A DNA stretch of 50,634 nt from Chloroflexota bacterium (GTDB lineage Bacteria; Chloroflexota; Dehalococcoidia; Lucifugimonadales; Lucifugimonadaceae). The translations under genes were made by a program, and so were the position numbers. The notes under the pieces were generated by a model. That model was not told the DNA's origin and ran no database searches. It saw only the letters and a list, made by a program, of their open reading frames with translations. This document shows, in pieces, positions 7,737 to 49,655 of this stretch (positions are counted from its first letter, which is position 1; each line of letters begins with the position of its first letter). The DNA is taken from contig PABO01000031.1 of assembly GCA_002699165.1 (NCBI GenBank), forward strand, positions 3,414 through 54,047, in the 5' to 3' direction.

Positions 7737-8597
7737 TTAGATGGTTTTAGAAAGGTTACTTTTAAAGATATTATTTTGAACTAAATTGATTTTATTTATA
7801 ATATTTTCTACTGTTTGATCATCTGATGATTGCTTAGTACTCCATGCTATTAATATATCCATAAAAAAGTCACCATTTAAGACAAAGTTTTCTAAATTTA
7901 AGCCTGAAGGAGTATTTATATCTTTTTCCATATGTGGGTACTCAAGTATACATTTATTATTAGACTCATTTTCTAAATTCATTATTCCAATTAATGTTTC
8001 ATCAAATATTTTATCTCCACTTTTTCTTAGACCCCAAAATTTTGGTTTTATATCTTTTTCAATCAATGTTTCAATTCCTGAAATAATTATTTCTTTTTCT
8101 TCATGATTTTTATTATTTTCAAGCCTGTTTTTGTAATCAACGTCTATAATTAGTCCTTTATCATAAGAGTTGCAAATTTCAATTAAATTTAGTAGACGAT
8201 CTATAGCTAGTTCTTCAGCTAATTTACTTCTATTTTTTTCAAAATATATTTTAACACTTAGTAAATTTGGATCAAATATATTTATTATCTCTAATGCATC
8301 TTTGGAACTAGGAACGGCTAATCCACCTCTATTTACATGTTCAATTGCTATTGCAGTCTTAATATTTTTATTTTTTGATTGAAAAAGAATACCTTCACAT
8401 AAATTTGGCTCAGCCCATATAATGAAGTTATGATTTTTATCAGTTTGATTGAGAGAATCAAAAATTAATTTGGCAGCTTTACTAGCTTGAAGTTTTTCAA
8501 ATGCAGATTTAGGGCGATTTTGCTCTAGATTACATGATAATACGTTAGTTCTATTATCAAGAGCTATAAAAAAATTACTTTGCTTATTATCAATCAT
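7737..8597 (-). CDS. Possible LacD/DUF2090-like TIM-barrel aldolase (tentative)
   Basis: A 286-residue protein. Several strands look like a class I aldolase barrel: FIIWAEPNLCEGILF, KTAIAIEHVNRGG, LLSVKIYFEKN, KGLIIDVDYKN and KPKFWGLRKSG. The pattern recalls tagatose-bisphosphate aldolase (LacD) and DUF2090 proteins, but I cannot fix the Schiff-base lysine; K in SVKIYF is one candidate. Its start overlaps the end of pgi by 8 nt, so it is co-translated with sugar-phosphate enzymes, which favours a sugar-phosphate role. Treat the function as a hypothesis. Confidence 0.5.
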   Translation of the reverse strand: MIDNKQSNFFIALDNRTNVLSCNLEQNRPKSAFEKLQASKAAKLIFDSLNQTDKNHNFIIWAEPNLCEGILFQSKNKNIKTAIAIEHVNRGGLAVPSSKDALEIINIFDPNLLSVKIYFEKNRSKLAEELAIDRLLNLIEICNSYDKGLIIDVDYKNRLENNKNHEEKEIIISGIETLIEKDIKPKFWGLRKSGDKIFDETLIGIMNLENESNNKCILEYPHMEKDINTPSGLNLENFVLNGDFFMDILIAWSTKQSSDDQTVENIINKINLVQNNIFKSNLSKTI

Positions 8598-10017
8598 TTT
8601 TTAACCGATTTAAATTTTTCTTTAATTCTTCATATTTTGTTTCAAAATAAAGTGATTTTCTTTCATTTTTCAATAATTCTAAATGGTCAGAATATCCCTG
8701 GTATTTTACAAACGTATTTAGAGTGTACAACGATTTTGGTATATTAAGGTCCTCGTTACCGTGTAAATTTATAACGATATTTTTTATGTTTTTAAAGCTT
8801 CCTTTTAATAATTGCCCCATCGAATGAAGATAATTTGGTGCAAAAAATATTAATACTTTTTTCTTTTCATTTGAAATCTCATTTACTAAATCAATCAGAT
8901 TTTCTTTTGATTCATAATTAAGGCAAGTACTGTGCACAAGCAGTGAAATTATTCCATTATGATTTTTTATTTCATTTACTAAATCATTTTTTTTAGATCC
9001 ATTTAAGTCATTTATAAAATTTATTTTTTTATTTTCAATTAAAGACTTAGTTGTAATTTTAGTTGATTCAACATTTGGTTGATCAAAAGGTTGGATTTTT
9101 ATTAAAGAACAAAATATTGCAATAGCATATAGGAATATTTGAAATTTATAAAATAAAGATTCATCATAATCTATCTTTATATTTATATAGTTTCTTGAAA
9201 ATTTATCTTGCTTCGGTGTAAAGGTTATGTGAGGATAAAAAGTATCTATGTTTTTTATAGGAAGAATACCACTTTCTTCCTTACCTGTTGATTCAGATAT
9301 AAGTTGTTCAATCCAATCTGAAATATAGTCATTTTTGTTTATAGAAGACAATGAAAACTCTTCGTTATTTTGATTGAAATTACTATAAAGAAATGCTGCT
9401 ATTTTTATAGCGGGATTTTCCTTATCATTAGATATACAGTCTAAGTTTGCTTTATTAATATTAGAAACTATTTTTTTTAAGCTGAATCCTGCTAGATAAA
9501 ACGGCAGAATGCCTAAGTGAGTAGAAATACTAAATCTTCCTCCGGTATTTGATGGAGTATTGAGTATATTTTGATTGTTTTCAATTCCATCTTTGATATA
9601 GAATTTATTTTCTGTCTTAATCTTTAGAATCTGATCAAGTATTTTTGTTTCTAGTGTATTGCTAGATTTTGAGCAAATGAAAACGGCAGTATGTTTCTTA
9701 TTGATAACTTCTTGGATTTTATTAATTCTTGAAATATCAAAATTATCTAAGAAAAATATTTTTGATGAATTGAGATATGAGGCTATTCTTGCCATACTTA
9801 TAGATCCTCCCATGCCTATGAAGACATACTGATCAAAAGTATCAATTTTAGAATAAGTGTTCTTAAAACTTTCTATACTCAAGTTTTTTGTCCACTCTAA
9901 GGGTATTTCGTTGTAATCATCGAAATCTCCTAAAGGGAATGAATCTTCATCGGGTAATAGTATTTTTTTTATTATATTTTGATCTACTATTTGATCCAAA
10001 TATTTTTCTAAACTCAT
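8590..10017 (-). CDS. pgi: Glucose-6-phosphate isomerase (divergent)
   Basis: A 475-residue SIS-fold protein. PGI landmarks are GMGGS (68-72), SKSSNTLET (116-124), TGGRFSISTHLG (158-169), GKEESGILPI (245-254, with the catalytic Glu247) and FDQPNVES (311-318). It interconverts glucose-6-P and fructose-6-P. The sequence is rich in Asn, Lys and Ile and clearly divergent. Its ATG overlaps the transaldolase stop as ATGA. In some Chloroflexota, transaldolase and PGI occur as one fused protein; here the two are separate but coupled genes in the same order. Confidence 0.88.
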   Translation of the reverse strand: MSLEKYLDQIVDQNIIKKILLPDEDSFPLGDFDDYNEIPLEWTKNLSIESFKNTYSKIDTFDQYVFIGMGGSISMARIASYLNSSKIFFLDNFDISRINKIQEVINKKHTAVFICSKSSNTLETKILDQILKIKTENKFYIKDGIENNQNILNTPSNTGGRFSISTHLGILPFYLAGFSLKKIVSNINKANLDCISNDKENPAIKIAAFLYSNFNQNNEEFSLSSINKNDYISDWIEQLISESTGKEESGILPIKNIDTFYPHITFTPKQDKFSRNYINIKIDYDESLFYKFQIFLYAIAIFCSLIKIQPFDQPNVESTKITTKSLIENKKINFINDLNGSKKNDLVNEIKNHNGIISLLVHSTCLNYESKENLIDLVNEISNEKKKVLIFFAPNYLHSMGQLLKGSFKNIKNIVINLHGNEDLNIPKSLYTLNTFVKYQGYSDHLELLKNERKSLYFETKYEELKKNLNRLKND

Positions 10018-11054
10018 TTATTTATTAGTTTTGAAATTTTTTGATCTATTGTATCCAGGACTGATTTATAAGATTCTTGAAATAATTTTATTCCATTTAC
10101 TAATAATGTGTTAGTTATTTTTTCGAAATCAAAGTGTTGTTTTGATTCTTCAAACAAGCTTTCAAAGTTTTTTGAAATTTCTAAATTATTTGAGTCTAAT
10201 ATTTGTGATTTTAATAAGTAGTCTATTGTTTCAAGGGGTAATGTATTTACAGTATCCTTAAGGGGTAAATTATAAGAATAATATTCTTCACTTAAGTCTT
10301 TCGATTTTACACTGGTTGATGCCCATAGTAATCTTTGAAAATTTTCTCCCATTTTATGCTTGTTTTCTAAAAATAAACTATATGCCTTAAATGCATTAAT
10401 TATGGCCATTTTATGGAAAAATTTATTTTTTGGATCGAGTAAATTATCAACAGCAGTGTCTATTCTGCTAATAAAAAAAGACGCAACTGATCGTGAATTA
10501 TTATTTTTGCTTTTTGATTCTATAAAGGCTTCAAGAGTATTTTTATAGCTTTCAAATGAGAACAACAAGGTTATATTTACATTTATTCCCTTCTCTAATA
10601 ATAATTTAGTAGCTTTGATTCCCTCCTTCGTGCCTGGGATTTTTATCATTAAGTTTTTTTTATTAACTTTAGCCCATAATTTTTCTGCTTCTGATAATGT
10701 TTTTTCAAAATCGTTTGCTAAAAATGGATCTACTTCTAGAGATACATATCCATCATTATGATTTGAATTTTCATATATATGATTTAAAATATCCGCAGCA
10801 TTTCTAATGTCATCCGTTGCGATTTCTTCAAATATATCTTTAGAGTTAGAGTGTTTTTCAGCTAAATTTATAATTTTTTTATCATAAGAGTCACTTGAGC
10901 TTATAGCTTTTTCAAAAATTGAAGGATTACTTGTTATTCCAGTTATACCTGCATCAACTAAATTTTTGAGATCTCCAATTTCGATCATCTGCTTACTTAT
11001 GGAATCAAGCCAAATAGATTGTCCACTTTTTGATAGTTTTTTTATATTAGTCAT
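10014..11054 (-). CDS. tal: Transaldolase
   Basis: A 346-residue class I aldolase of the transaldolase family. Visible are IWLDSIS with Asp17, GITSNPSIFEKAI (39-51), the Schiff-base lysine in LMIKIPGTKEG (Lys138), VNITLLFS (159-166) and SFFISRID near 190. It moves a dihydroxyacetone unit between sugar phosphates in the non-oxidative pentose phosphate pathway. Its ATG directly follows the rpiB stop (TAAATG), and its own stop overlaps pgi, so it is tightly coupled to both. Confidence 0.95.
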   Translation of the reverse strand: MTNIKKLSKSGQSIWLDSISKQMIEIGDLKNLVDAGITGITSNPSIFEKAISSSDSYDKKIINLAEKHSNSKDIFEEIATDDIRNAADILNHIYENSNHNDGYVSLEVDPFLANDFEKTLSEAEKLWAKVNKKNLMIKIPGTKEGIKATKLLLEKGINVNITLLFSFESYKNTLEAFIESKSKNNNSRSVASFFISRIDTAVDNLLDPKNKFFHKMAIINAFKAYSLFLENKHKMGENFQRLLWASTSVKSKDLSEEYYSYNLPLKDTVNTLPLETIDYLLKSQILDSNNLEISKNFESLFEESKQHFDFEKITNTLLVNGIKLFQESYKSVLDTIDQKISKLINK

Positions 11055-11510
11055 TTATGATAAGTTTTCTTTTTCTATTTGATCTAATTTTTCTTTTCTT
11101 CTAATGAATCTTTCTTCATGAATAAAATTAGCCTTAAGAAATTCAGTAGTAATCTCTTTAGCTAATTCTTCGCCTATAATTCTTCCTCCTAGGCAAATAA
11201 CATTCATATCATCGTGTTCAACTCCTTGACCTGCAGAATAAGTGTCATGACAGATTGCAGCCCTTACGTCCTTGAATTTATTCGCAACAACAGATGCACC
11301 AACTCCAGAGCCACATAAAATGATCCCTTTATCAAATAATTTTTTATTAATAGCATCAGCCACTAATTTAGAGGTATCTGGATAATCATCGTTGGCATCA
11401 TATTTGTCACCACTCAAGTCTTCGATTTGATAACCAAGTGATTCAACATGCTGGATAATAGTTTTTTTTAATTCAAATCCGCCGTGATCAGCACTAATAC
11501 AAATTTTCAT
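11055..11510 (-). CDS. rpiB: Ribose-5-phosphate isomerase B
   Basis: A 151-residue member of the RpiB/LacA/LacB family. It shows ISADHGG (5-11), the active-site cysteine in LCGSGVG (Cys66), CHDTYSA with His88, and EHDDMNVICLGGR (98-110) with His99. It interconverts ribulose-5-P and ribose-5-P. It lies 5 nt after tkt and abuts tal, completing a tkt-rpiB-tal set for non-oxidative pentose phosphate flux. No ribulose-phosphate epimerase is seen in the window. Confidence 0.95.
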   Translation of the reverse strand: MKICISADHGGFELKKTIIQHVESLGYQIEDLSGDKYDANDDYPDTSKLVADAINKKLFDKGIILCGSGVGASVVANKFKDVRAAICHDTYSAGQGVEHDDMNVICLGGRIIGEELAKEITTEFLKANFIHEERFIRRKEKLDQIEKENLS

Positions 11511-11515
11511 TTAAT

Positions 11516-13504
11516 TTATCTTAAAATTAATTTTGTTTTTTCAATTATTCTATCACTTGAAAAACCAAATGAATTAATTAGTTCTTTGCCTGGACCAGAT
11601 GCCCCAAAAGATTCTATTGAAATTATATTATCGTTATTTCTAGTATATTTTTGCCATCCCAGTCCAATCCCAGCTTCAACTGAAATGATTTTACTTGTAT
11701 CAGGAGGAATGATTTTATTTTTAAAGTCCTCAGTTTGGTTATCAAATAAATCCCAACAAGGCATTGATACTACTCTAACTTTGTAACTCTTACTTAAATG
11801 TTTTGCAGCAGTAATAGTTTCAGATACTTCTGACCCAGTCGATAGAAAAATTATTTCAGGATTATCTTTAGTATTCTCATAACAAATATAAGCACCTTTT
11901 GAAAAATACTCAAGAGTAAGTTTATTATCACTCAAAGATTCAATATCTGGTAGCCCTTGTCTAGAAAGGATTAATGCTGACGGTTTATCTAAAGTTGTGA
12001 TTGCCATATGCCATGATAATAATGTTTCTTTTTTATCTGCTGGTCTGTAAACATTTAAGTTAGGGATTCCTCTTAAGCTCATGAGCTGAGAAATAGGTTG
12101 ATGTGTAGGGCCATCTTCGCCTAATCCGATAGAGTCATGTGTAAAAATCCAAATACTATTAAGATTAGATAAAGCACTTAATCTTACTGAGCCTCTCATA
12201 TAATCTGAAAAAACTAGAAAAGTTCCACCAAATACTCTGAAATTTCCATGAGCAGAAATTCCATTCATGATTCCCCCCATACCATGCTCTCTAACTCCAA
12301 ATTTAATATTTCTTCCGTCGGGATTTATTTTAGAAAAATTCTTTGAACCTTTGATTTCAGTATTAGTTGATCCAGTTAAATCAGCTGAGCCTCCAATTAA
12401 GTTTGGCATATGATCCTTAAGAAGATTTATTGATACTCCTGATGAAGCTCTTGTAGCTTCAGGTTCGTTAGTATTATTTATAGAATCAAGTAATGACTTG
12501 TCCCAGTTTGGACTCATTTTTTGATTTAATAATTTGTCTAATTCATCATACATATCAGGATTTTTAGACTTAAGTTCTTTATATTCTGAATTCCATTCTG
12601 CTTCTAATTTTTTTCCTGATAAAATTGATTCATTCATATGTTCAAGTACATCTTCAGGGACTTCAAATTCTGAATATTTCCATTTTAGATTTTCTCTTGC
12701 TAGCTTTGTTTCATCTTCACCGAGTGGCTCTCCATGTGAAGATTCTTTTCCAGATTTATTTGGAGAACCATATCCAATTGTTGTTTTAGCAATAATAAGC
12801 GTAGGCTGGTTTAAATTACTTTTTGCTTTATTTATAGTTTCTTCTAATTGTTTAACACTAAGTCCATCTATATTTTCAAAAACTTCCCATCCATATGCCT
12901 TAAATCTATCTCCAACGTTTTCTGTGAATGCAAGATCATTACTACCATCTATTGAGATACCATTAGAATCATATATGTATACTAATTTACCCAATCCTAG
13001 AGTTCCTGCCAAAGATGCAGCTTCAGATGATATTCCTTCTTGAAGGTCTCCATCACCAACAATTCCATATATATAGTGATCAATAATATTTTTGTACTTG
13101 CTAGACATCATTTTTTCAGAAATTGCCATTCCTACACCATTTGCAAATCCTTGTCCTAAGGGACCTGTCGTAACTTCAATTCCTAGATCTATATCTCTCT
13201 CTGGATGACCAGGGGTTTTTGAACCAAATTTTCTAAATTTTTTAAGATCATTAATTCCAAAGTTATAACCCGTAAGATGTAGGACCGAATATAGTAGAGC
13301 AGAGGCATGACCAATAGAAAGAATAAATCTATCTCTATTATGGAATCTAGGATTACTTGGACTATGATTCATGATTTTTTTGAATAAAGTATATGCAATT
13401 GGAGCTGCTCCCATTGGTGCTCCAGGATGACCAGAATTTGCACTGTTTACTTGATCTACTGAAAGAAATCTTAGTGTGTTTATCGCTTTTTCTTCTATAT
13501 TCAT
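11516..13504 (-). CDS. tkt: Transketolase
   Basis: A full-length 662-residue thiamine-diphosphate enzyme. The N-terminal domain has NSGHPGAPMGAAP, the GDGDLQEGISSEAA cofactor motif followed by YDSNGISIDG, and SSHGEPLGEDE. The middle domain has KFGVREHGMGG, THDSIGLGEDGPTHQP and SRQGLPD. The C-terminal domain has LSTGSEV and ESFGASGPGKEL. It transfers two-carbon units between sugar phosphates. It starts 2 nt after the lactonase gene and belongs to the long minus-strand operon. Confidence 0.97.
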   Translation of the reverse strand: MNIEEKAINTLRFLSVDQVNSANSGHPGAPMGAAPIAYTLFKKIMNHSPSNPRFHNRDRFILSIGHASALLYSVLHLTGYNFGINDLKKFRKFGSKTPGHPERDIDLGIEVTTGPLGQGFANGVGMAISEKMMSSKYKNIIDHYIYGIVGDGDLQEGISSEAASLAGTLGLGKLVYIYDSNGISIDGSNDLAFTENVGDRFKAYGWEVFENIDGLSVKQLEETINKAKSNLNQPTLIIAKTTIGYGSPNKSGKESSHGEPLGEDETKLARENLKWKYSEFEVPEDVLEHMNESILSGKKLEAEWNSEYKELKSKNPDMYDELDKLLNQKMSPNWDKSLLDSINNTNEPEATRASSGVSINLLKDHMPNLIGGSADLTGSTNTEIKGSKNFSKINPDGRNIKFGVREHGMGGIMNGISAHGNFRVFGGTFLVFSDYMRGSVRLSALSNLNSIWIFTHDSIGLGEDGPTHQPISQLMSLRGIPNLNVYRPADKKETLLSWHMAITTLDKPSALILSRQGLPDIESLSDNKLTLEYFSKGAYICYENTKDNPEIIFLSTGSEVSETITAAKHLSKSYKVRVVSMPCWDLFDNQTEDFKNKIIPPDTSKIISVEAGIGLGWQKYTRNNDNIISIESFGASGPGKELINSFGFSSDRIIEKTKLILR

Positions 13505-13506
13505 AA

Positions 13507-14427
13507 TTAATCTACTTTATTACCTTTAGTCTGCAATTTTATTTTATACAAAGATTTATCTGATGCTATAAATAAGTAATCAAAATTTTCCCCTCCAAAA
13601 CAAAGATTAGCTGTCCTTTGCTCTGGAATTTGGATTTTAGCTAATAATTCTCCTTTGGGAGAAAAAATTTGTACTCCATCCCAAGCTGATGAGAACAAGT
13701 TACCATTTTCATCTACCTTAATACCATCTGGTTTTCCAGGCCTTGGAGTTGCAAAAACTTTTTTATTTTTTAATGAATTATCCTCAACATCATATGAAAA
13801 AATATTTCCTGTTTCACCAGTATCTGTAATATATATAATTTTTTCATCAGGTGAAAAAGCAATTCCATTTGGTGCATCAATTTCAGATGTTAATAGTTTT
13901 ATTTCATTTCGTCCATCCATCATATAAACACCGTTATAAATAGTTTCAGATCTCGATTCATAACCTTCATGGTTACTCATTATTCCATATTGGGGATCTG
14001 TAAACCAAATAGATCCATCAGATTTACAAACTAGATCATTTGGAGAATTATATTTTTTCCCATCAACTCTATTAGTTAATATTTCAACATTACCATCATT
14101 ATCTGTTCTACTTACAGCTCGTCTTCCATGTTCAGCTGTAATCATGAGACCATCTAAATCAAGACTATTTCCATTTGAAAAGTGGGAAGGGTGTCTATAT
14201 ACACCGGTTTTATCATTTGAAAGATTATAGTAAAGCATTCTATTATATGGGATATCAGACCAAACAATTAAATTTTTTTCTTTTAGGAATATAGGACCCT
14301 CTGCCCACAAACATCCTTCAAAAACTTTTTCAATAGATATTTCTTTAGGGAATAATGTTTTCGAACTTTCTACAAAAAATTCTACTTCTTTTTTTAGTTC
14401 TTTTGGATCCCTAAATATCTTTGACAT
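13507..14427 (-). CDS. SMP-30/gluconolactonase family protein
   Basis: A 306-residue six-bladed beta-propeller. Family motifs in order: EGPIFLKEKNLIVWSDI (metal-ligand Glu in the first blade), SNGNSLDLDG, TAEHGRRAV, SPNDLVCKSDGSIWFTDPQYG (metal-binding Asn), DAPNGIAFSPDEK and KPDGIKVDENGN (metal-ligand Asp). Such enzymes hydrolyse sugar or other lactones. The start overlaps the upstream stop by 1 nt (TAATG). Placed before tkt, it suggests entry of gluconate-type acids into sugar-phosphate metabolism, though no 6-phosphogluconate dehydrogenase is present here. No signal peptide is seen. Confidence 0.9.
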   Translation of the reverse strand: MSKIFRDPKELKKEVEFFVESSKTLFPKEISIEKVFEGCLWAEGPIFLKEKNLIVWSDIPYNRMLYYNLSNDKTGVYRHPSHFSNGNSLDLDGLMITAEHGRRAVSRTDNDGNVEILTNRVDGKKYNSPNDLVCKSDGSIWFTDPQYGIMSNHEGYESRSETIYNGVYMMDGRNEIKLLTSEIDAPNGIAFSPDEKIIYITDTGETGNIFSYDVEDNSLKNKKVFATPRPGKPDGIKVDENGNLFSSAWDGVQIFSPKGELLAKIQIPEQRTANLCFGGENFDYLFIASDKSLYKIKLQTKGNKVD

Positions 14428-15779
14428 TATTTTTTTCTTACTATTCTCTTTTTTCTTATGTCAGAAGAAACTAATGATATTTGTTCAACTAGATTTTTAT
14501 TTGACAGTCTAGAACATATTTTTTCAGTAAATATAGAGTCAGATGAAAGTTGTTCTTTACTTGAATTATAAGATTTTATTCTTTGATGGTCAAAACTAGA
14601 GTTTATTACTGTGTGCTTTAGATTGTCTTGCCTGTAAACAATTAAGTTATAAATAATCTCATCTGACCACTTTGTATTATTATGGCCCCATAAATCATCT
14701 AAAAAAAGATACTCAACATCTTTACATAAATCATAAACAAAACCTTTTCCTTGATTTGTCCTAACAAAATCCCTTACATTATCTATTAATTCTGATGTTG
14801 AGATATAAAAAATGTTTAAATTTTTCTTTGAAATTTCATTTGCTATAGCTGAAGTTAAGTAACTTTTTCCAGAACCTGTACCGCCGTGTATATATAACCA
14901 AGAGGGGCTTTTACTTTCTACAAATTCTTTTGACTTTAATAGAGCCATTTCAATAGAATCAAATGTTATCTTTTCTTCTTGAGTTAATTCTTTATTTGGT
15001 TTTCTTGTTAATTTCCTTAATTTTGCATTTTCAAATACTTTAGGAATTCCATTACCTTTATGGTTTGTGTTTTTTGAATCTAAATGAATAGATTGGACAA
15101 GATTTGGATCTGTAAATCGTGTTTGAGATCTCTCATCGAAATCCAATATACTTTTATTGATAACTACTACAGTTGGTAGTTTTCTTGTATATCGATATGT
15201 AAATAAATGGTCAATCTTTTCTTCTATCCAATCAGAATATTTTTGATTACCATAATCATCAACTATTAGGAATGGATAATCTATAAGTTCATTAAAGTTA
15301 TTTTCTTCGTTATTGTTATTTGTGATGATATCTATAACTTCTTGAGTCGACTTGTAAATTACAGTATTTTCATTTTGTATACAGTTAATGGCTATGCCAA
15401 CAGCAAGATGAGTTTTCCCTGTGCCAGGCTCTCCACTTATAACTAACCAACCCATAGGATTTTTTGAGTAATCATCAGCCTTTCTTAAGTTTTCTCTTAA
15501 GTTTTTAGGGTCTGCTTTTCCTATTTTTCCATCGATCTTAAATTTCTTAAGATCATATTCTAAAAGTTGATGAACTCCTGCATATCTAAGCTTTATCTTA
15601 AATTCTAAGTCATCTGATTTACCGCTTTGGCATGAACATGGAACTGTTTCTTTATTTACAATGATCCACCTTGCTGAATCACATATTTCACACTCTAAAT
15701 AATCTGATTCATTTTCAAATTCTTCAAAATAATTTGTACTGAACTTTCTATTATTTAATATTTCTTTTAAGCTTTCCAA
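14427..15779 (-). CDS. Tandem AAA+ ATPase, DnaC/DnaI-like helicase-loader fusion
   Basis: A 450-residue protein with two complete DnaC/IstB-type ATPase modules. N-terminal cysteines C30, C33, C48 and C50 form a likely zinc site. The first module has Walker A GEPGTGKT (116-123) and Walker B FLIVDD (170-175). The second has Walker A GGTGSGKS (299-306) and Walker B LFLDD (358-362). DnaC and DnaI carry one such module, so a tandem pair is unusual. The gene starts with TTG, 2 nt after the dnaB stop. This context strongly suggests loading or remodelling of the DnaB helicase. Family is clear, the exact role is inferred. Confidence 0.82.
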   Translation of the reverse strand: MESLKEILNNRKFSTNYFEEFENESDYLECEICDSARWIIVNKETVPCSCQSGKSDDLEFKIKLRYAGVHQLLEYDLKKFKIDGKIGKADPKNLRENLRKADDYSKNPMGWLVISGEPGTGKTHLAVGIAINCIQNENTVIYKSTQEVIDIITNNNNEENNFNELIDYPFLIVDDYGNQKYSDWIEEKIDHLFTYRYTRKLPTVVVINKSILDFDERSQTRFTDPNLVQSIHLDSKNTNHKGNGIPKVFENAKLRKLTRKPNKELTQEEKITFDSIEMALLKSKEFVESKSPSWLYIHGGTGSGKSYLTSAIANEISKKNLNIFYISTSELIDNVRDFVRTNQGKGFVYDLCKDVEYLFLDDLWGHNNTKWSDEIIYNLIVYRQDNLKHTVINSSFDHQRIKSYNSSKEQLSSDSIFTEKICSRLSNKNLVEQISLVSSDIRKKRIVRKK

Positions 15780-15781
15780 AA

Positions 15782-17167
15782 TTAATTCTCTTGAGTTGAT
15801 AATTGATTATTTCTTACTGAATCAATAGATACAAATCTTCCAATAGAATCATCTACGGCAAGTGGAATTGTATCAGTAGGACCATTTCTGTGCTTAGCTA
15901 CAATTATTTCAGCTTGTCCTTCGGGATATGGAACCCCTGGATTATTTTTAATCCATTCCTCTTTAGTTACAAATTTTTCTTCTCTATGTATAAACATAAC
16001 AACATCTGCATCTTGCTCTATTGATCCAGATTCTCTAAGGTCTGATAATAATGGCCTATGTGATTGTCTATGCTCTATAGCTCTTGAGAGTTGAGATATG
16101 GCTAAAACAGGAACCCTTAAATCTCTAGCCATTGCTTTTACTTGCCTTGAAATTTCAGAAACTTCCTGAGCTCTGTTCGTTTCTCTGGAACCTTTGTTAT
16201 TACTTAATAACTGCATATAATCAAGTATTATGAAATCTAAACCATATTCTAGTTGTAATCGTCTAGCTTTTCCTCTCATCTCGGCTACGCTTTGTATGGG
16301 AGAATCATCTATAAAAATATTTAGGTCAGACAGTTTACCAATAGCGTCAATCAATCTGTTTTCTTGAGATGTACTTAATCTCATCATTCTTAATGAATGC
16401 ATATTGATTCTTGCTTGAGTTGCTAGCATTCTTGTTGCAATTTGTTCCCTACCCATTTCAAGAGAATAAATTGCTACCTTATGTTCGTTCATTGCAGCAT
16501 TTATTGCTAGATTTAATGCAAACATAGATTTTCCAACGGAAGGTCTAGCTGCAAGGACTAACATATCAGATCTTTGGAGACCTCCCAAAAGTTCATCAAG
16601 CATTTTGAAACCTGACCCTATTGGAGCATTTTCACCATCATTAATATCTGTAGATGATGTTTCTAAAAAAGGAGTTAAGGTCTCTCTTAATGGAACAAAA
16701 TCTCTACTTGGTTGATCACTTCTAATTCCATAAATAATATCCTCTGCTTTAGCTAAAGATGTTTCAACGTCAGGATCATTATCAAATCCAATATCTGAGA
16801 TGTTTTCTGCTGCGTTAATCAAAGTTCTCATTGTAGCAGTTCTTCTTACGAGATTAGCATAGTGTTTTATATGAATTGAAGTTGGTACGACATCTACAAC
16901 TTTTGCTAGATAAGCTCTTCCTCCAACTTCTTCAAGTTTTTCTTGAGTCTCTAATTCATGAGCTATAGTGATTTGATTTATAGGTTCCTGTCTATTAAAT
17001 AAATCTCTAGCTATTTCAAAAATTATTTTATTAGGAGATAGATAAAAATGTCCAGGTTCTAGAAACGAGGCTATTTTTGTAAAAGACATACCATCAAGTA
17101 ATAATGAACCTATTACTGATTCTTCTGCTGATATGTCATGTGGAAATAGTTTGTCAGATAACACCAT
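15782..17167 (-). CDS. dnaB: Replicative DNA helicase DnaB
   Basis: A 461-residue hexameric helicase. The N-terminal domain starts PHDISAEESVIGSLLLDG, as in bacterial DnaB. The RecA-like domain has Walker A ARPSVGKS (207-214), Walker B FIILDYMQLL, SQLSRAIEHR, DLRESGSIEQDADVV and the terminal arginine-finger segment (AKHRNGPTDT). It unwinds DNA at the replication fork. The gene lies 18 nt after rplI, the common bacterial rplI-dnaB order, and is followed directly by the putative loader. No intein is present. Confidence 0.97.
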   Translation of the reverse strand: MVLSDKLFPHDISAEESVIGSLLLDGMSFTKIASFLEPGHFYLSPNKIIFEIARDLFNRQEPINQITIAHELETQEKLEEVGGRAYLAKVVDVVPTSIHIKHYANLVRRTATMRTLINAAENISDIGFDNDPDVETSLAKAEDIIYGIRSDQPSRDFVPLRETLTPFLETSSTDINDGENAPIGSGFKMLDELLGGLQRSDMLVLAARPSVGKSMFALNLAINAAMNEHKVAIYSLEMGREQIATRMLATQARINMHSLRMMRLSTSQENRLIDAIGKLSDLNIFIDDSPIQSVAEMRGKARRLQLEYGLDFIILDYMQLLSNNKGSRETNRAQEVSEISRQVKAMARDLRVPVLAISQLSRAIEHRQSHRPLLSDLRESGSIEQDADVVMFIHREEKFVTKEEWIKNNPGVPYPEGQAEIIVAKHRNGPTDTIPLAVDDSIGRFVSIDSVRNNQLSTQEN

Positions 17168-17185: not shown

Positions 17186-17818
17186 CTAATTATCTGAATT
17201 ATTATCTTCATTTTCTTCATTTTCAGAAGAGGTTTTTGGAGTGTTTTCTTGGTTATTAGAATTTTCTTCAGAATTTTCTTCAGAATTTTCTTCAGAATCA
17301 GTTTCTTTTTCTTCTAATTTTTTCAACTTTTCTTGCTCAATTTTGTGATCTTCCATTACCTTTATGGATTCCTCGTCAGGAGTTATATTTAAGGTAATAT
17401 CTAAAGATACTTCTTCAACAAATTTTGTAAAAACTTTGAATTTCCCTATTACTCTTATTGGATCTGTAATATTGAAAAACCTTCTGTTCATTTCTCTTCC
17501 AGTTTTTTCTTCCAAAGCTTCAGCAACTATAGTAGGAGTTATTGACCCATACAGTCTACCTGTCGGACCAGTTCTTACTTCAATGTCAAGTTCAATATCT
17601 TTTAAGCTATCAGCTACAACTTGCCAGTCTTTAGTTTCTTGGATTCTTCTATCTTCTGCCTCAGCTCTAAGCTTTGTTGCTCTTTGTAGAGCTTCTTCAG
17701 TAGCCAGAACAGCGACACCTTGAGGTATGAGGAAATTTCTTGCAAACCCAGGCTTAACATTTTTTACGTCACCTGCTCTTGCCGTAGGTAACAAATCTTT
17801 CAAAAATAATATATTCAT
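17186..17818 (-). CDS. rplI: 50S ribosomal protein L9 with acidic C-terminal tail
   Basis: The first 150 or so residues are a normal L9: NILFLKDLLPTARAGDVKNVKPGFARNFLIP, a long central helix rich in Ala, Glu and Arg, and an RNA-binding C-domain with GRLYGSIT. L9 is usually about 150 residues; this one has 210. The extra 60 are almost only Glu, Asn, Ser and Asp, and include a SEEN repeat encoded by a 12-bp tandem repeat. The tail should be disordered and strongly negative. The gene heads the long minus-strand operon, with dnaB next. Confidence 0.93.
   Translation of the reverse strand: MNILFLKDLLPTARAGDVKNVKPGFARNFLIPQGVAVLATEEALQRATKLRAEAEDRRIQETKDWQVVADSLKDIELDIEVRTGPTGRLYGSITPTIVAEALEEKTGREMNRRFFNITDPIRVIGKFKVFTKFVEEVSLDITLNITPDEESIKVMEDHKIEQEKLKKLEEKETDSEENSEENSEENSNNQENTPKTSSENEENEDNNSDN
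17259..17294. repeat. Three perfect tandem copies of a 12-bp unit inside rplI
   Basis: GAATTTTCTTCA occurs three times in a row (17259-17270, 17271-17282, 17283-17294), followed by a partial GAAT. Read on the minus strand, the copies encode SEEN repeats in the acidic tail of L9. The unit is a multiple of three, so copy-number change would lengthen or shorten the tail without a frameshift. Confidence 0.9.
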
Positions 17819-44735: not shown

Positions 44736-44876
44736 TGTTAAAAAAAAATTTTCTTTTATATGAGTATTATTACTCTTTTTTTCTATCATAGGAATTGAAT
44801 GAATAGAAGAAAGAGTTTATATTTATTTAAGCTTTTTATTTAATAGTTACATATAAGTACAACATTGGAGAAAATA

Positions 44877-45725
44877 ATGGCAACTCAAAGTTATAAAGAA
44901 GTAAATGCAGAAGAATACATTGTTGAGAACGAGCCATTCTTCATGCCTACTTCTGATGAAATTGAAGTCTTTCAAGCAGCTTACAATGAAAGAGTTCCAA
45001 TTCTTCTTAAAGGTCCAACAGGTACAGGGAAAACAAGATTTGTTGAATACATGTCTTGGAAGTTAAACGATAATAAGAAAAAAACAAAAGATATTCCTTT
45101 AGTTACAGTGGCATGTCATGAAGACCTTACAGCTAGTGATTTAGTTGGAAGATATTTGTTAGATGCTAGTGGAACAAAATGGATTGATGGCCCACTTACA
45201 AGAGCTGTAAAGTCTGGTGGAATATGTTATCTAGATGAGGTTGTTGAAGCAAGAAAAGACACTACTGTTATAATTCATCCCTTAACTGATCACAGACGAA
45301 CTCTTAGCATTGATAAATTAGGTCAAGTTATACAAGCTGATGATGGATTTTTATTAGTAGTTTCATATAACCCCGGTTATCAAAATGCAGTAAAAGACCT
45401 AAAGCATTCTACAAGGCAACGATTTGTGGCAATTGAATTTGATTTCCCTGATGTAGAAAGAGAAACAAAAATTATTTCTCATGAGTCCGGTGTTGAAGAA
45501 GGTATTTCAAATCAGCTTGCTGTTCTAGGTCAAAAAATTAGAAATTTAAGAGAGCATGGTCTAGAAGAAGGTGCAAGCACTAGATTATTGATATATGCTG
45601 CTAGATTGATCAAACAAGGAATTTCTCCCAAAAGAGCCTGTCAAGTGGCCTTAACTTGGGGTATAACCGATGAGGTACAAATTCAAGAAACTGTCGATCA
45701 AATAGTTTCTTCAATTTTTGAATAA
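44877..45725 (+). CDS. MoxR-family AAA+ ATPase (NorQ/CbbQ/NirQ type)
   Basis: A 282-residue AAA+ protein. Walker A is GPTGTGKT (46-53), ACHEDLTASDLVGRYLL follows, and Walker B with a pre-sensor loop is GGICYLDEVVEARKDTT (114-130). Then come LTDHRRTL and VVSYNPGYQNAVKDLKHSTRQRF, typical of NorQ/CbbQ. The ATG at 44877 has GGAG 6 nt upstream. Such ATPases work with a NorD/CbbO VWA partner to activate or insert a metal into a client enzyme; the partner is two genes downstream. No nitric oxide reductase or rubisco is present. Confidence 0.92.
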   Translation: MATQSYKEVNAEEYIVENEPFFMPTSDEIEVFQAAYNERVPILLKGPTGTGKTRFVEYMSWKLNDNKKKTKDIPLVTVACHEDLTASDLVGRYLLDASGTKWIDGPLTRAVKSGGICYLDEVVEARKDTTVIIHPLTDHRRTLSIDKLGQVIQADDGFLLVVSYNPGYQNAVKDLKHSTRQRFVAIEFDFPDVERETKIISHESGVEEGISNQLAVLGQKIRNLREHGLEEGASTRLLIYAARLIKQGISPKRACQVALTWGITDEVQIQETVDQIVSSIFE

Positions 45726-45727
45726 AA

Positions 45728-46315
45728 TTGACCAAAAAAAAATATAAAATACTAAAACAGATAATTGATGGAAGAACTTCTAAAAAAAATATTTTTGAAG
45801 AAGAACAACTGATGGTTGCTGCTGTGAGTATTTTAATAGAAAAGGATAATCCTAATTATCCAATCTATATGATCAAACGAGCTGATGAAGGGAAACATGC
45901 ATTAGAGTGGGCTTTCCCTGGAGGTAAAATGGAAACAACTGATTTGAATCTAAAGCATACTGCGACAAGAGAAACAAACGAAGAAATTGGTGCAGATATA
46001 AAAGATTTTGAAATATGGGGTGAGCTAGACCCGGTTATGACTGTAGGTACAGGATGGGCTATTCAACCTTTTGTAGGAGAAATCAATCACGATCCTATGC
46101 TTCTTAAGAATGATGACGAAGTTGAAGAGATTGTAAAAATTCCTTTATTTGATCTTATTGATGATTCAAATAAAAGATTTGTCTCTTTTATCAGAGATGA
46201 TGTTAGGGTAGATTCTAAGGCGTTTGCTTTTGAAGATAAACTTATTTGGGGAGCTTCTGCAAGAATGATAATTCAAATTTCAGATTTAATAGAAAACAAG
46301 GTGAAAAATGGATAA
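45728..46315 (+). CDS. NUDIX hydrolase, NudL/CoA-pyrophosphatase-like
   Basis: A 195-residue protein with a NUDIX box in the form seen in the CoA-pyrophosphatase group: EWAFPGGKME then TDLNLKHTATRETNEEIG. The N-terminal part has VAAVSILIEKDNPNYPIYMIKRADEG, like the UPF0035 motif region. It likely cleaves a nucleoside-diphosphate-linked molecule such as CoA or NADH; the substrate is not certain. It starts at TTG 45728, 2 nt after the MoxR stop, and overlaps the VWA gene by 8 nt. It is therefore locked inside that operon. Confidence 0.85.
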   Translation: MTKKKYKILKQIIDGRTSKKNIFEEEQLMVAAVSILIEKDNPNYPIYMIKRADEGKHALEWAFPGGKMETTDLNLKHTATRETNEEIGADIKDFEIWGELDPVMTVGTGWAIQPFVGEINHDPMLLKNDDEVEEIVKIPLFDLIDDSNKRFVSFIRDDVRVDSKAFAFEDKLIWGASARMIIQISDLIENKVKNG

Positions 46316-49300
46316 TGTTTCTAAATTCACATCAGAAAAAATTAAAAGATTATTAAAGGCATACCCTGAGGATTTATCAAAAAAATATACAGAATCAAGA
46401 AAAGTACTTGAAACTAAATTACCTGAAGAAATACTTTCTCAATGGGAAAATATTGGATTAGACATAGCACAACTTTCATCTCGATCCTGGGAACCTGCTT
46501 TGTCTTATTTTGCTGCTTCAGCAAAAGTTCAACAATATCTTCCTTCAGGCCAATTTTTAGGTTGGTGTAAGTCAGGATTTAATTTATCCAAGGAATCTAA
46601 TAAAATCTCAGAATCTTTCTTGAATTCTAGCCCTCAAACAATGATTAGATTGAGACCAAGATATATTGAAGACTGGGTAAATAGAGTAACTAAACTTTAC
46701 AAGGGAACATGGAAATCAACAAATCTAACCTGCAAGCTTTTTGAATATACCCCAATAATTCTTGAAACATTAAGTTTTGATCAATTTTGTAAATTATCTG
46801 ATTTTATGGAAATTTTATCTAACAGATCTTATGATTTAGCTACTGAAATTCTTGAATCTTCATTAGAAATATATTCATTGAACTTTCAGGATATTGATGA
46901 ATTGATTCATCTGTCAGTTTTGATTACAGAAAATGATTGGAGGGACATTAAACCTACCTACGAAGTTATTAAAGATCAAATATCTAAACTACCTAATGCT
47001 CATACAAAAATAACCTTTGATATGACAAGAAGATTGCATGGACTTTCTGGTTTTAAAATTTCTGACTTTTTGCAATTATTGGTTAGAACCTTATCTTTAG
47101 CTAATAAAAATGATAATGACCAAATTTTACATATGACTCAACAGGTAGTGAATAATGTGCCAGTAGCAACTATGGATTTCTTAAATAATCTTCCAAGATT
47201 ACTAGATACATTAGACATTGATCAGCTAGATCAATGGAAATCTCAGGGAATTAGGCTTGCGATTGACCAAGATACCAATACTTCTCCTGCAACTCAATTT
47301 TTTAAATTACAATCTAAGGAGTCTCAAGATTTAATTGATAGAATATCTTCTAGTGTGGAACTATCTAGAATAAAAGATCTAATGAAACTTTATTGTACTG
47401 CTTTATCAGGAGAAGATGTATTAGTTGCGGGTTCAAAGAATATTACAGAAAAAAATATTGGTTGGGGAGAATCTGATTTAGCTACTTCTGATGGTAAAAC
47501 TATTTACTTACCAGATGTGATTAAAAGATATAACAAAAAAGATGAAAATTTTAATTTTTATAAAGTCTTAGCATCTCATCAACAAGCACTTACAGAATAT
47601 GGTAGTTATAAATATGATCACAATATAGAACCAGTAAATTCAAAATCTAAAGCAATATTTAAAGCACTTCTTAAACAGATTAATGATTCTGAAGAAGAAC
47701 ATGCAACAAGAATTGCAAAGGTATTAAGAGGCTCTTATCCATTTAAGCATGATCCAAATTTAGCTGACGATATATTTAGTTTAGTGGAAGAATACAGAGT
47801 TGATCAATTGATACTTAAAAAATATCCAGGCCTTAGAAAGTTTTATAAAAAAGTTCAATTAGAAGAACTTACTAATAGAAAAAACAAAGATGAAGAAAAT
47901 GGTAAAAAACGTAGAGAATTATTTGTAGAAAAAGTTTTGCGTTTTACATTAGGCGATAAAGATAGGCATGTTCCCAAAGGAACTAAATCTAAATTTGAAG
48001 ATATAGTTAGATACTTAATGACTCTATCAAGAATCTCAGATGACAATATAAAGTCAGTAGAAGATTCAATGGCAGTCTCATTTAGATTATTTTCACTAAT
48101 TAGAGATATTGAAAATGAAGAAATTGAATCAGATGAACCACAAGATGAAGCAGATGAAATTAAAGATGAAGAATTAGATGACTCTGAAGATAAATTTGAA
48201 GATGAACAAATTGTAAATGATATGATTTCATATTTTTCTGGTGGAGATGGGGAGCCTGGTGAAGGGGAAGAATCTGAAGAAAATTCTATCAATCCTCCAG
48301 AAGAAGGAGAATATCAATCTCCTGATCCAGTTGAATATCAAGGGGACTTTAAACCTGAATTAGGTCAATTACTAACAGAAATGTTAACTGTTAGTGGAGA
48401 TGAAATGCAGGGAGAGGGAGAAGAAATGGAAGGTTTGACTCAAGAACAAATAGAAGAGTTGATTCAAAATTCTCCTGATTTAGAGACCAAAGAGTCAGAT
48501 GAGAATCAAGAAATGACAGAAACACCAAATCAGGAATTACTTGAAAACTTAATGAAAGAATTGAAAAATAGAGATGTAGATAATACTTCGTTTTCTGGAG
48601 GAGAACCAACTCATGTTGATGAAGATGGAGGTCCTTTAGAAGCTAAAGAACCAGATACATTTACATACGATGAATGGGATTTTAGAGACGTAGAATATAA
48701 ACCTAATTGGTGCCTTTTGCATGAAAAAAAACTTCCTGATGGTGAGGCAAATTTCTATAGAGAAACTCTTACTAACAATTCAAATCTTGTTCATCAAATA
48801 AAAAAACAGTTTGAATTATTTGTACCAGAACAATATAGAAAGCAAAAAAGACTTGAAGACGGTGAAGAAGCAGATTTAGATGCAGGTATCGAAGCTCTTA
48901 TAGACTTAAGGTCAGGAGTTACTCCTGATGAAAAAATATATTGGAGAAGAAATAAAACTGAAAGATCAGTAGCAGTTGCTTTATTAATTGATATGAGTGC
49001 ATCCACTGCTGAAGCAATTGATGATAGCACAAAGTCTAGTTCTGATGATTGGGGTGCTCCTGATGACCCTGTAGAATACATGGTTTGGCTTAGATCGAGA
49101 AGGGCAGAGGGATTAAGGCGATCATATAAAAGAATTGTCGATGTAGAAAAAGAAGGAATAGTATTAATGGTTAACTCCTTAGAAATGCTAGGAGATGATT
49201 ATGGTATATATGGATTTTCTGGATACGGCAGAGAAAATGTTGAGTTTTATACTATAAAAGATCTTGATGAAAAATTCAATGACTCTATATCTGGAAGAAT

Positions 49301-49655
49301 AGATAGAATTGCTCCTCTACATGCTACACGAATGGGTCCTGCAATAAGGCATACTATTACTAAATTAGAAGACCATGAGGCTAGGTCTAAAATTCTTTTC
49401 CTAGTTACAGATGGAAGACCACAAGATAGAGGTTATTCTAGAGAAGGCGTTGAGAAAGAATATGCTGTATATGACACCAGACAAGCCCTTATAGAAGCTA
49501 GACAGAAAGGAATCACTCCATTCTGTTTGACTGTTGATAAATCAGGTCATGACTATCTTAAAACAATGATGGATGATTTACCATATGAAGTTTTATCAGA
49601 TATTTCAATGTTACCTGCTCGACTCCCAGAGTTGTATCGAAAGATTTCTACTTAG
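46308..49655 (+). CDS. Giant NorD/CbbO-like VWA-domain protein
   Basis: An 1115-residue protein. The N-terminal 450 or so residues are helical and rich in charged residues. A middle part (about 420-560) has NorD-like sequence with EEHATRIAKVLRGSYPFKHDP and LVEEYRVDQLILKKYPGLRKFY. Residues about 600-790 are highly acidic (DEPQDEADEIKDEELDDSED and similar) and likely disordered. The C-terminal VWA domain has the MIDAS motif D895-M-S897-A-S899 and FLVTDGRPQDRGY near 1030. NorD and CbbO proteins pair with MoxR ATPases. It is much longer than typical NorD (about 600-650). Confidence 0.88.
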   Translation: MDNVSKFTSEKIKRLLKAYPEDLSKKYTESRKVLETKLPEEILSQWENIGLDIAQLSSRSWEPALSYFAASAKVQQYLPSGQFLGWCKSGFNLSKESNKISESFLNSSPQTMIRLRPRYIEDWVNRVTKLYKGTWKSTNLTCKLFEYTPIILETLSFDQFCKLSDFMEILSNRSYDLATEILESSLEIYSLNFQDIDELIHLSVLITENDWRDIKPTYEVIKDQISKLPNAHTKITFDMTRRLHGLSGFKISDFLQLLVRTLSLANKNDNDQILHMTQQVVNNVPVATMDFLNNLPRLLDTLDIDQLDQWKSQGIRLAIDQDTNTSPATQFFKLQSKESQDLIDRISSSVELSRIKDLMKLYCTALSGEDVLVAGSKNITEKNIGWGESDLATSDGKTIYLPDVIKRYNKKDENFNFYKVLASHQQALTEYGSYKYDHNIEPVNSKSKAIFKALLKQINDSEEEHATRIAKVLRGSYPFKHDPNLADDIFSLVEEYRVDQLILKKYPGLRKFYKKVQLEELTNRKNKDEENGKKRRELFVEKVLRFTLGDKDRHVPKGTKSKFEDIVRYLMTLSRISDDNIKSVEDSMAVSFRLFSLIRDIENEEIESDEPQDEADEIKDEELDDSEDKFEDEQIVNDMISYFSGGDGEPGEGEESEENSINPPEEGEYQSPDPVEYQGDFKPELGQLLTEMLTVSGDEMQGEGEEMEGLTQEQIEELIQNSPDLETKESDENQEMTETPNQELLENLMKELKNRDVDNTSFSGGEPTHVDEDGGPLEAKEPDTFTYDEWDFRDVEYKPNWCLLHEKKLPDGEANFYRETLTNNSNLVHQIKKQFELFVPEQYRKQKRLEDGEEADLDAGIEALIDLRSGVTPDEKIYWRRNKTERSVAVALLIDMSASTAEAIDDSTKSSSDDWGAPDDPVEYMVWLRSRRAEGLRRSYKRIVDVEKEGIVLMVNSLEMLGDDYGIYGFSGYGRENVEFYTIKDLDEKFNDSISGRIDRIAPLHATRMGPAIRHTITKLEDHEARSKILFLVTDGRPQDRGYSREGVEKEYAVYDTRQALIEARQKGITPFCLTVDKSGHDYLKTMMDDLPYEVLSDISMLPARLPELYRKIST

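Follow-up and report, generated by a model that had tools for sequence, protein, structure and literature searches.

The described systems closest to the protein considered here are the loaders of the replicative helicase, namely DnaI of Bacillus, which works together with the co-loaders DnaD and DnaB, and DnaC of Escherichia coli, the usual architecture of such loaders being one AAA+ module per chain. According to passages of PMC3791466, B. subtilis DnaI binds the helicase in the form of three asymmetric dimers, the two subunits of which contact the helicase differently. For E. coli DnaC, passages of PMC8213410 report that a sensor II mutant has lost its ATPase activity and loads about as well as the wild type, and that the coupler arginine R216, located four residues before the arginine finger, restrains ATP turnover until single-stranded DNA is bound. 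As for the Chloroflexi, the main text of Brezellec et al. 2016 (PMC5109545), whose strain set includes a Dehalococcoides and an Anaerolinea, describes one domestication of dna[CI], dciA being systematically lost where dna[CI] is resident; the terms "fused", "duplicat", "tandem" and "two copies" do not occur in that main text. Two other kinds of AAA+ protein also lend themselves to comparison: the type II machines p97 and NSF, which like the protein described here carry two AAA+ modules in one chain, and IstB, the helper of IS21, the AAA+ domain of which is homologous to that of the loaders.

The window, by which we mean the whole stretch of 50,634 nucleotides analysed, contains on its minus strand a gene for a loader with two such modules, starting 2 nt after the stop codon of dnaB. 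The features of this gene and of its upstream neighbours are the following:

17186..17818, minus strand: rplI (ribosomal protein L9; Pfam), conserved upstream neighbour
15782..17167, minus strand: dnaB, replicative helicase and presumed client (NCBIfam TIGR00665, 478 bits, above cut-off)
14427..15779, minus strand: gene of the double-AAA+ helicase loader (450 aa, TTG as start codon)
15630..15692, minus strand: four-cysteine cluster C30 C33 C48 C50 (82 of 82 doubles)
15069..15509, minus strand: N-terminal AAA+ module, about residues 91-237 (AF2 model and VIA)
15411..15434, minus strand: Walker A of the N module, residues 116-123, GEPGTGKT (K122 in 82 of 82)
15255..15272, minus strand: Walker B of the N module, residues 170-175 (D174 in 81 of 82, D175 in 79 of 82)
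15117..15131, minus strand: N module, coupler arginine R217 and finger arginine R221 (R217 in 75 of 82)
15069..15071, minus strand: position at which sensor II of the N module would be expected, occupied by Asn and not by arginine
14982..15068, minus strand: inter-module linker, about residues 238-266
14430..14981, minus strand: C-terminal AAA+ module, about residues 267-450 (VIA)
14862..14885, minus strand: Walker A of the C module, residues 299-306, GGTGSGKS (K305 in 82 of 82)
14694..14708, minus strand: Walker B of the C module, residues 358-362 (D361 and D362 in 82 of 82)
14508..14510, minus strand: arginine finger R424 of the C module (78 of 82)
14454..14456, minus strand: sensor II R442 of the C module (72 of 82)

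A sequence-only reading of the window had described a 450-residue open reading frame just past dnaB, with two full Walker A/B sets and an N-terminal cluster of four cysteines, and had taken it for a tandem loader of the DnaC/DnaI kind, two ATPase modules being joined in a single protein. The frame and its distance from dnaB were confirmed, on the minus strand, the motif positions proved exact, the cluster is present and the identification was borne out. The start codon is sound, since the genus places TTG, GTG or ATG at an unchanged position just after dnaB, the gap to the dnaB stop codon being 2-4 nt in 8 of 9 genus loci (those in which that stop was located).

The Pfam domain PF01695 (IstB_IS21) matched the window protein twice, each half separately. 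Among the NCBIfam matches listed, the best were single-module loader-like models, and because all scores of the window protein fall under the cut-offs, the double form, as judged by these profiles, fits no NCBIfam model among those matches; in a diverse set of 55 proteins, every member matched the DnaI, DnaC and PRK08116 models. When the halves were compared with solved structures by phmmer, the best match of the N half was 3ec2 (Aquifex DnaC) and that of the C half 2w58 (a DnaI-like loader). An AF2 model of the window protein (mean pLDDT 84.6, pTM 0.62) was also compared by VIA with Foldseek's top-ranked structures, a set in which lower-ranked relatives by fold only could not appear. Residues 69-237 align with Aquifex DnaC 3ecc over 160 residues (Z 21.1, 1.8 A), domain III of DnaA tying with DnaC for this module, and residues 237-444 align with E. 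coli DnaC 6qem over 182 residues (Z 18.7, 2.5 A) and with DnaI 2w58 at Z 18.2. Each module is closest, or nearly closest, to DnaC/DnaI structures.

The closest structure of each module, the Walker A/B motifs, the arginine finger and the replacement of DciA (see below) all agree with membership of the DnaC/DnaI family, and it is well supported that this protein is the chromosome's own DnaC/DnaI-type loader of the replicative helicase, which would bind DnaB. It is a variant of these loaders and not a plain member, because its chain holds two AAA+ modules. With E. coli DnaC it shares the AAA+ fold, the Walker A/B motifs, the arginine coupler and finger and a recognisable sensor II, whereas DnaC has one module, another N-terminal domain and a dnaT-dnaC context. 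With Bacillus DnaI it shares the kind of AAA+ module, a cysteine-rich N-terminal domain and, in most Chloroflexota loci, a DnaD-domain partner gene just upstream, but DnaI has one AAA+ module instead of two per chain and the window's own genus is without the DnaD-domain gene. The four cysteines are a probable zinc site in a DnaI-like N-terminal domain predicted to bind the helicase. They are not part of what is new in this protein, as single-module loaders carry the cluster too (it is present in 35 of 37 loader ORFs that are single-module or partial).

The order rplI-dnaB is kept wherever the locus extends that far, the common order being rplI-dnaB-dnaD-loader. In a set of 27 loci (L034-L060), dnaB, dnaD and the loader gene follow each other in this order in 23, dnaD and the loader in two and dnaB and the loader in two, and the gene upstream of the loader carries PF07261 in the three cases tested. 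The Pfam model detected a DnaD-domain gene in 41 of 60 relatives and a Chloroflexota profile in 43; with both, no such gene was seen in the window's genus (0/9), in genus g5 (0/3) or in one further genome (G053). These genomes are small (0.9-1.5 Mb), though the small genus g6 retains the gene. In the window's genus, the DnaD-like gene that normally separates dnaB from the loader has been lost. On the downstream side, the neighbour of the loader gene is an SGL-family protein, and positions 8590-13504 hold ORFs that we take, from their translations, to be sugar-phosphate genes (isomerase, transaldolase, RpiB-like, transketolase-like). Elsewhere in the window (44865-49655) lies what is presumably a MoxR-like AAA ATPase ORF, close to a 1115-aa ORF whose C-terminal part looks VWA-like.

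DciA (PF05258) was found in none of the 60 relatives, nor in the whole genome of the window, and PF05258 was not among the best 25 of 57 Pfam rows for the window protein. Across 201 genomes of the phylum, the loader occurs in 131, DciA in 66 and both in four (G174, G228, G232 and G308), each of which has a weak loader match (8e-4 to 5e-6). Loader and DciA are near-exclusive across the phylum, which agrees with the dna[CI] domestication and the absence of dciA alongside resident dna[CI] described in the main text of Brezellec et al. (PMC5109545).

A match was found in 59 of 60 relatives, with a full-length homologue in 9/9 genomes of its genus. We surveyed 119 genomes of the class with a profile built from 55 doubles (E 1e-20): 108 matched, 100 of them through a single match that spans no fewer than 392 of the 463 positions, five with a single C-type module (G077, G090, G128, G142 and G170) and three with contig-edge pieces only (G087, G099 and G169). 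Of 201 genomes of the phylum, 124 matched. Beyond the class, at least 36 doubles were recognised in 98 matching genomes (28 as one spanning match, 8 as two matches in one open frame), the remaining matches, among those listed, being of single-module or undecided architecture. Both Walker A motifs are intact in the 81 distinct doubles in which this was checked; two intact Walker A motifs were likewise found in 75 of 80 named loci, the titles of which include Dehalococcoidia, SAR202, Anaerolineae and Caldilineales. The fusion beside dnaB therefore does recur in relatives, as the sequence-only reading had proposed to verify, and is no local oddity: the double form is usual in the class and common in part of the Chloroflexota, and other parts of the phylum still have loaders with one module. 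Matches to the double-loader profile were also seen in bins titled Deltaproteobacteria, Proteobacteria and Acidimicrobiia (L175, L176 and L202), which are probably misnamed Chloroflexota bins.

Phylogenetic analyses bear on the origin of this architecture. In a tree of 100 rows, 32 of 34 N modules form a group that also takes in one stray C module and whose support does not reach the starred level. The deep singles fall outside the doubles; the window's C module sits on a long branch near the root and its placement was not used. In a focused tree of 70 rows, from which the window's genus was left out, all ten in-class singles fall among the C modules. AU tests, which exclude the long-branch L094 and do not treat L086, L087, L093 and L095 as true singles, these being contig-edge pieces, did not reject a single clade of C modules and nine in-class singles (p 0.55), and rejected the union of those nine singles with the N modules (p 1.3e-5) or with the deep singles (p 6e-4). 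The trees thus lend good support to a duplication of the AAA+ module within the gene. The in-class singles, which like the other single-module Chloroflexota loaders share the operon, the AAA+ motifs and the cysteine cluster with the doubles, would be reversions by internal deletion of the N module, the C module always being kept, because all ten retain the cluster. Three families (f1, f42 and f55) each contain both double and single forms, which suggests at least three losses of the N module; starred branches require two.

Family f100 shows other arrangements. In a large genome of this family, one locus (L106, 4057-5925, minus strand) holds a 338-aa loader ORF with the cysteine cluster and a 253-aa one without it, sharing a frame and lying about 96 nt apart with stops between them, perhaps an independent, unfused tandem. 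Two other loci of the family (L080 and L115) encode single-module loaders with about 300 low-complexity residues ahead of the cluster.

Conservation was followed in an alignment of 82 rows of doubles, in which the window's own sequence is counted twice. The four cysteines and both Walker A lysines are invariant (82/82), and the two Walker A motifs are 178-221 residues apart, most commonly 187. The N-module finger place, 221, is R in 76 rows and K in 6, and the C-module coupler place, 420, which is Lys in the window protein, has Arg in only 28 of 82. Sensor I varies in both modules, so the ATP site of the C module may be non-canonical too. Sensor II was counted by class with a strict positional window, since a looser pattern, applied after 22 of 150 doubles with incomplete C ends had been dropped, gave false positives. 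In the window's class, N sensor II is present in 5/70, the C coupler in 20/65 and C sensor II in 56/65; the named Dehalococcoidia have N sensor II in 0/11. The named Anaerolineae have it in 17/17, with the C coupler in 15/16 and C sensor II in 8/16, their modules thus looking complete apart from C sensor II. Among 141 doubles, 61 are without N sensor II and the C coupler and keep C sensor II, 25 miss N sensor II and keep the other two, 21 keep all three and 13, by this pattern-based count, have a sensor II motif in neither module. An independent-pairs test, which had only 4 pairs, showed no correlation between losing N sensor II and losing the C coupler. The deep single loaders, in a count that takes in two contig-edge pieces of doubles, have the finger in 24/24, the coupler in 22/24 and sensor II in 23/24. 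Because these loaders keep all three elements and the classes differ in their patterns, it is probable that both modules of the early double were complete and later diverged differently by class.

Survival of the sensor and arginine-finger residues in both halves, a point raised by the sequence-only reading, is partial in the window protein: the finger stands in both, and sensor II only in the C module (R442). The suspicion that one half might be degenerate was rejected as regards Walker A/B and the finger, which are kept in both halves, and holds in part for N sensor II, which is mostly lost in the class. Purifying selection acts on each half: in L011-L012, the only pair whose dS is clearly unsaturated, dN/dS is 0.065 (N module) and 0.073 (C module). 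The sequence-only reading had also suggested that a covalent pair would alter the stoichiometry of helicase loading, or that one half may be regulatory. Motif loss and secondary reversion together favour unequal modules, with the N module as the accessory partner in the window's class.

We propose that the loader is a covalent, asymmetric DnaI dimer, of which three would act per DnaB hexamer, with ATP-hydrolysing and ATP-holding sites alternating, a reading to which we give a probability of roughly 0.5. One loader molecule would do the job of a DnaI dimer, and three molecules per hexamer would supply six AAA+ modules to a single ring resting on three domains that anchor it. For the window's class, the N-to-C interface would be a complete, DNA-switched ATP site, because the C module keeps sensor II in cis and the N module gives the finger and the coupler. 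The C-to-N interface, where sensor II and often the coupler are missing, would for that reason mainly hold ATP and brace the ring. With the modules alternating in one ring, each covalent pair would form one complete site. The logic of such a loader would resemble that of eukaryotic ORC and RFC, whose sites are likewise unequal. The model puts together the DnaI dimers and the behaviour of DnaC sensor II and coupler described in the passages cited above (PMC3791466 and PMC8213410). Against it speak the 13 doubles with a sensor II motif in neither module and the 25 that miss only N sensor II, the outcome of the independent-pairs test, the largely complete modules of the named Anaerolineae, the variable sensor I and the low confidence of AF2 in how the modules are placed (pTM 0.62 and 0.54). 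The fuller account, in which three covalent N-C pairs per DnaB with alternating interfaces arose by a gene-internal duplication that was partly undone several times, is more tentative, its odds lying somewhat below even.

It is rather unlikely that six double loaders instead act on each DnaB as stacked AAA+ rings, N against N and C against C. One chain does carry two AAA+ modules, as in p97 or NSF, and one DnaI-like N-terminal domain per chain would give six anchors, as for single loaders. Both window modules also align jointly by VIA with NSF (303 residues, 4.6 A, Z 11.6) and with Rix7 (309 residues, 5.5 A, Z 14.1, from the AF2 model with pTM 0.62), and a second double aligns, more loosely, with p97 (289 residues, 6.4 A). 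However, the modules taken singly score much higher (Z 18-21) and are of the DnaC/DnaI kind, unlike those of p97 and NSF, and the relative placing of the modules in these models is uncertain (pTM 0.62 for the window protein and 0.54 for the second double), for which reason AF2 was dropped as arbiter of their arrangement. Moreover, sensor II would be missing throughout a pure N ring, and repeated loss of the N module beside an unchanged helicase would be easier if both modules shared one tier.

A comparably low probability attaches to the N module being a non-hydrolysing regulatory or DNA-holding clamp, with six chains loading DnaB through their C modules in the ordinary DnaI ring geometry. The N module is dispensable, as the grouping of all ten in-class singles with C modules indicates, it has mostly lost sensor II in the class, and in the window protein it departs from the DNA-binding tetrad of E. 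coli DnaC at two of four aligned positions. Yet its Walker A lysine is invariant, its Walker B motif and finger are conserved and its dN/dS is as low as that of the C module, which argues that nucleotide binding and an inter-subunit role of the N module are selected for; six extra modules would also need placing.

That a mobile-element protein, IstB or a phage DnaC, lies beside dnaB by chance is very improbable. The Pfam domain bears the name IstB_IS21, and homologous single modules do occur on phages and plasmids: among the matches, the 30 phage and 15 plasmid ones listed, beyond which lie 659 and 750 records respectively, are single modules no longer than about 715 nt, each matching the query twice, and some phage relatives adjoin DnaD-like genes. 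Against this, the operon position is conserved across the class, DciA is absent, no IS21 transposase is adjacent and the window protein scores 91.5 bits with the IstB model NF038214 against a cut-off of 200, on which grounds the reading was rejected. A phage origin of the double form was rejected as well, since none of 80 viral loci is double (best-scoring rows, among which a rare viral double could be missed).

An assembly artefact or mis-joined gene pair, which the sequence-only reading had allowed for and for which the draft state of the genome (37 contigs) speaks, can be dismissed as having a negligible probability, because independent genomes share the fusion (all nine of the genus and single-contig ones such as G072, G107 and G153), in one reading frame and with conserved inter-module spacing.

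The new part of this system is its architecture, the AAA+ module being doubled inside one loader gene. A search of titles and abstract openings in the open-licence PMC literature found no description of a double-AAA+ DnaC/DnaI loader, and the known loader structures and mechanisms considered here rest on single-module loaders. The window's genus seems to manage with the helicase and the double loader alone, without a DnaD-like partner. The doubles and their natural C-only reversions offer a ready comparison for asking whether all six ATP sites of a loader are needed or whether an asymmetric subset of them opens and closes the ring.
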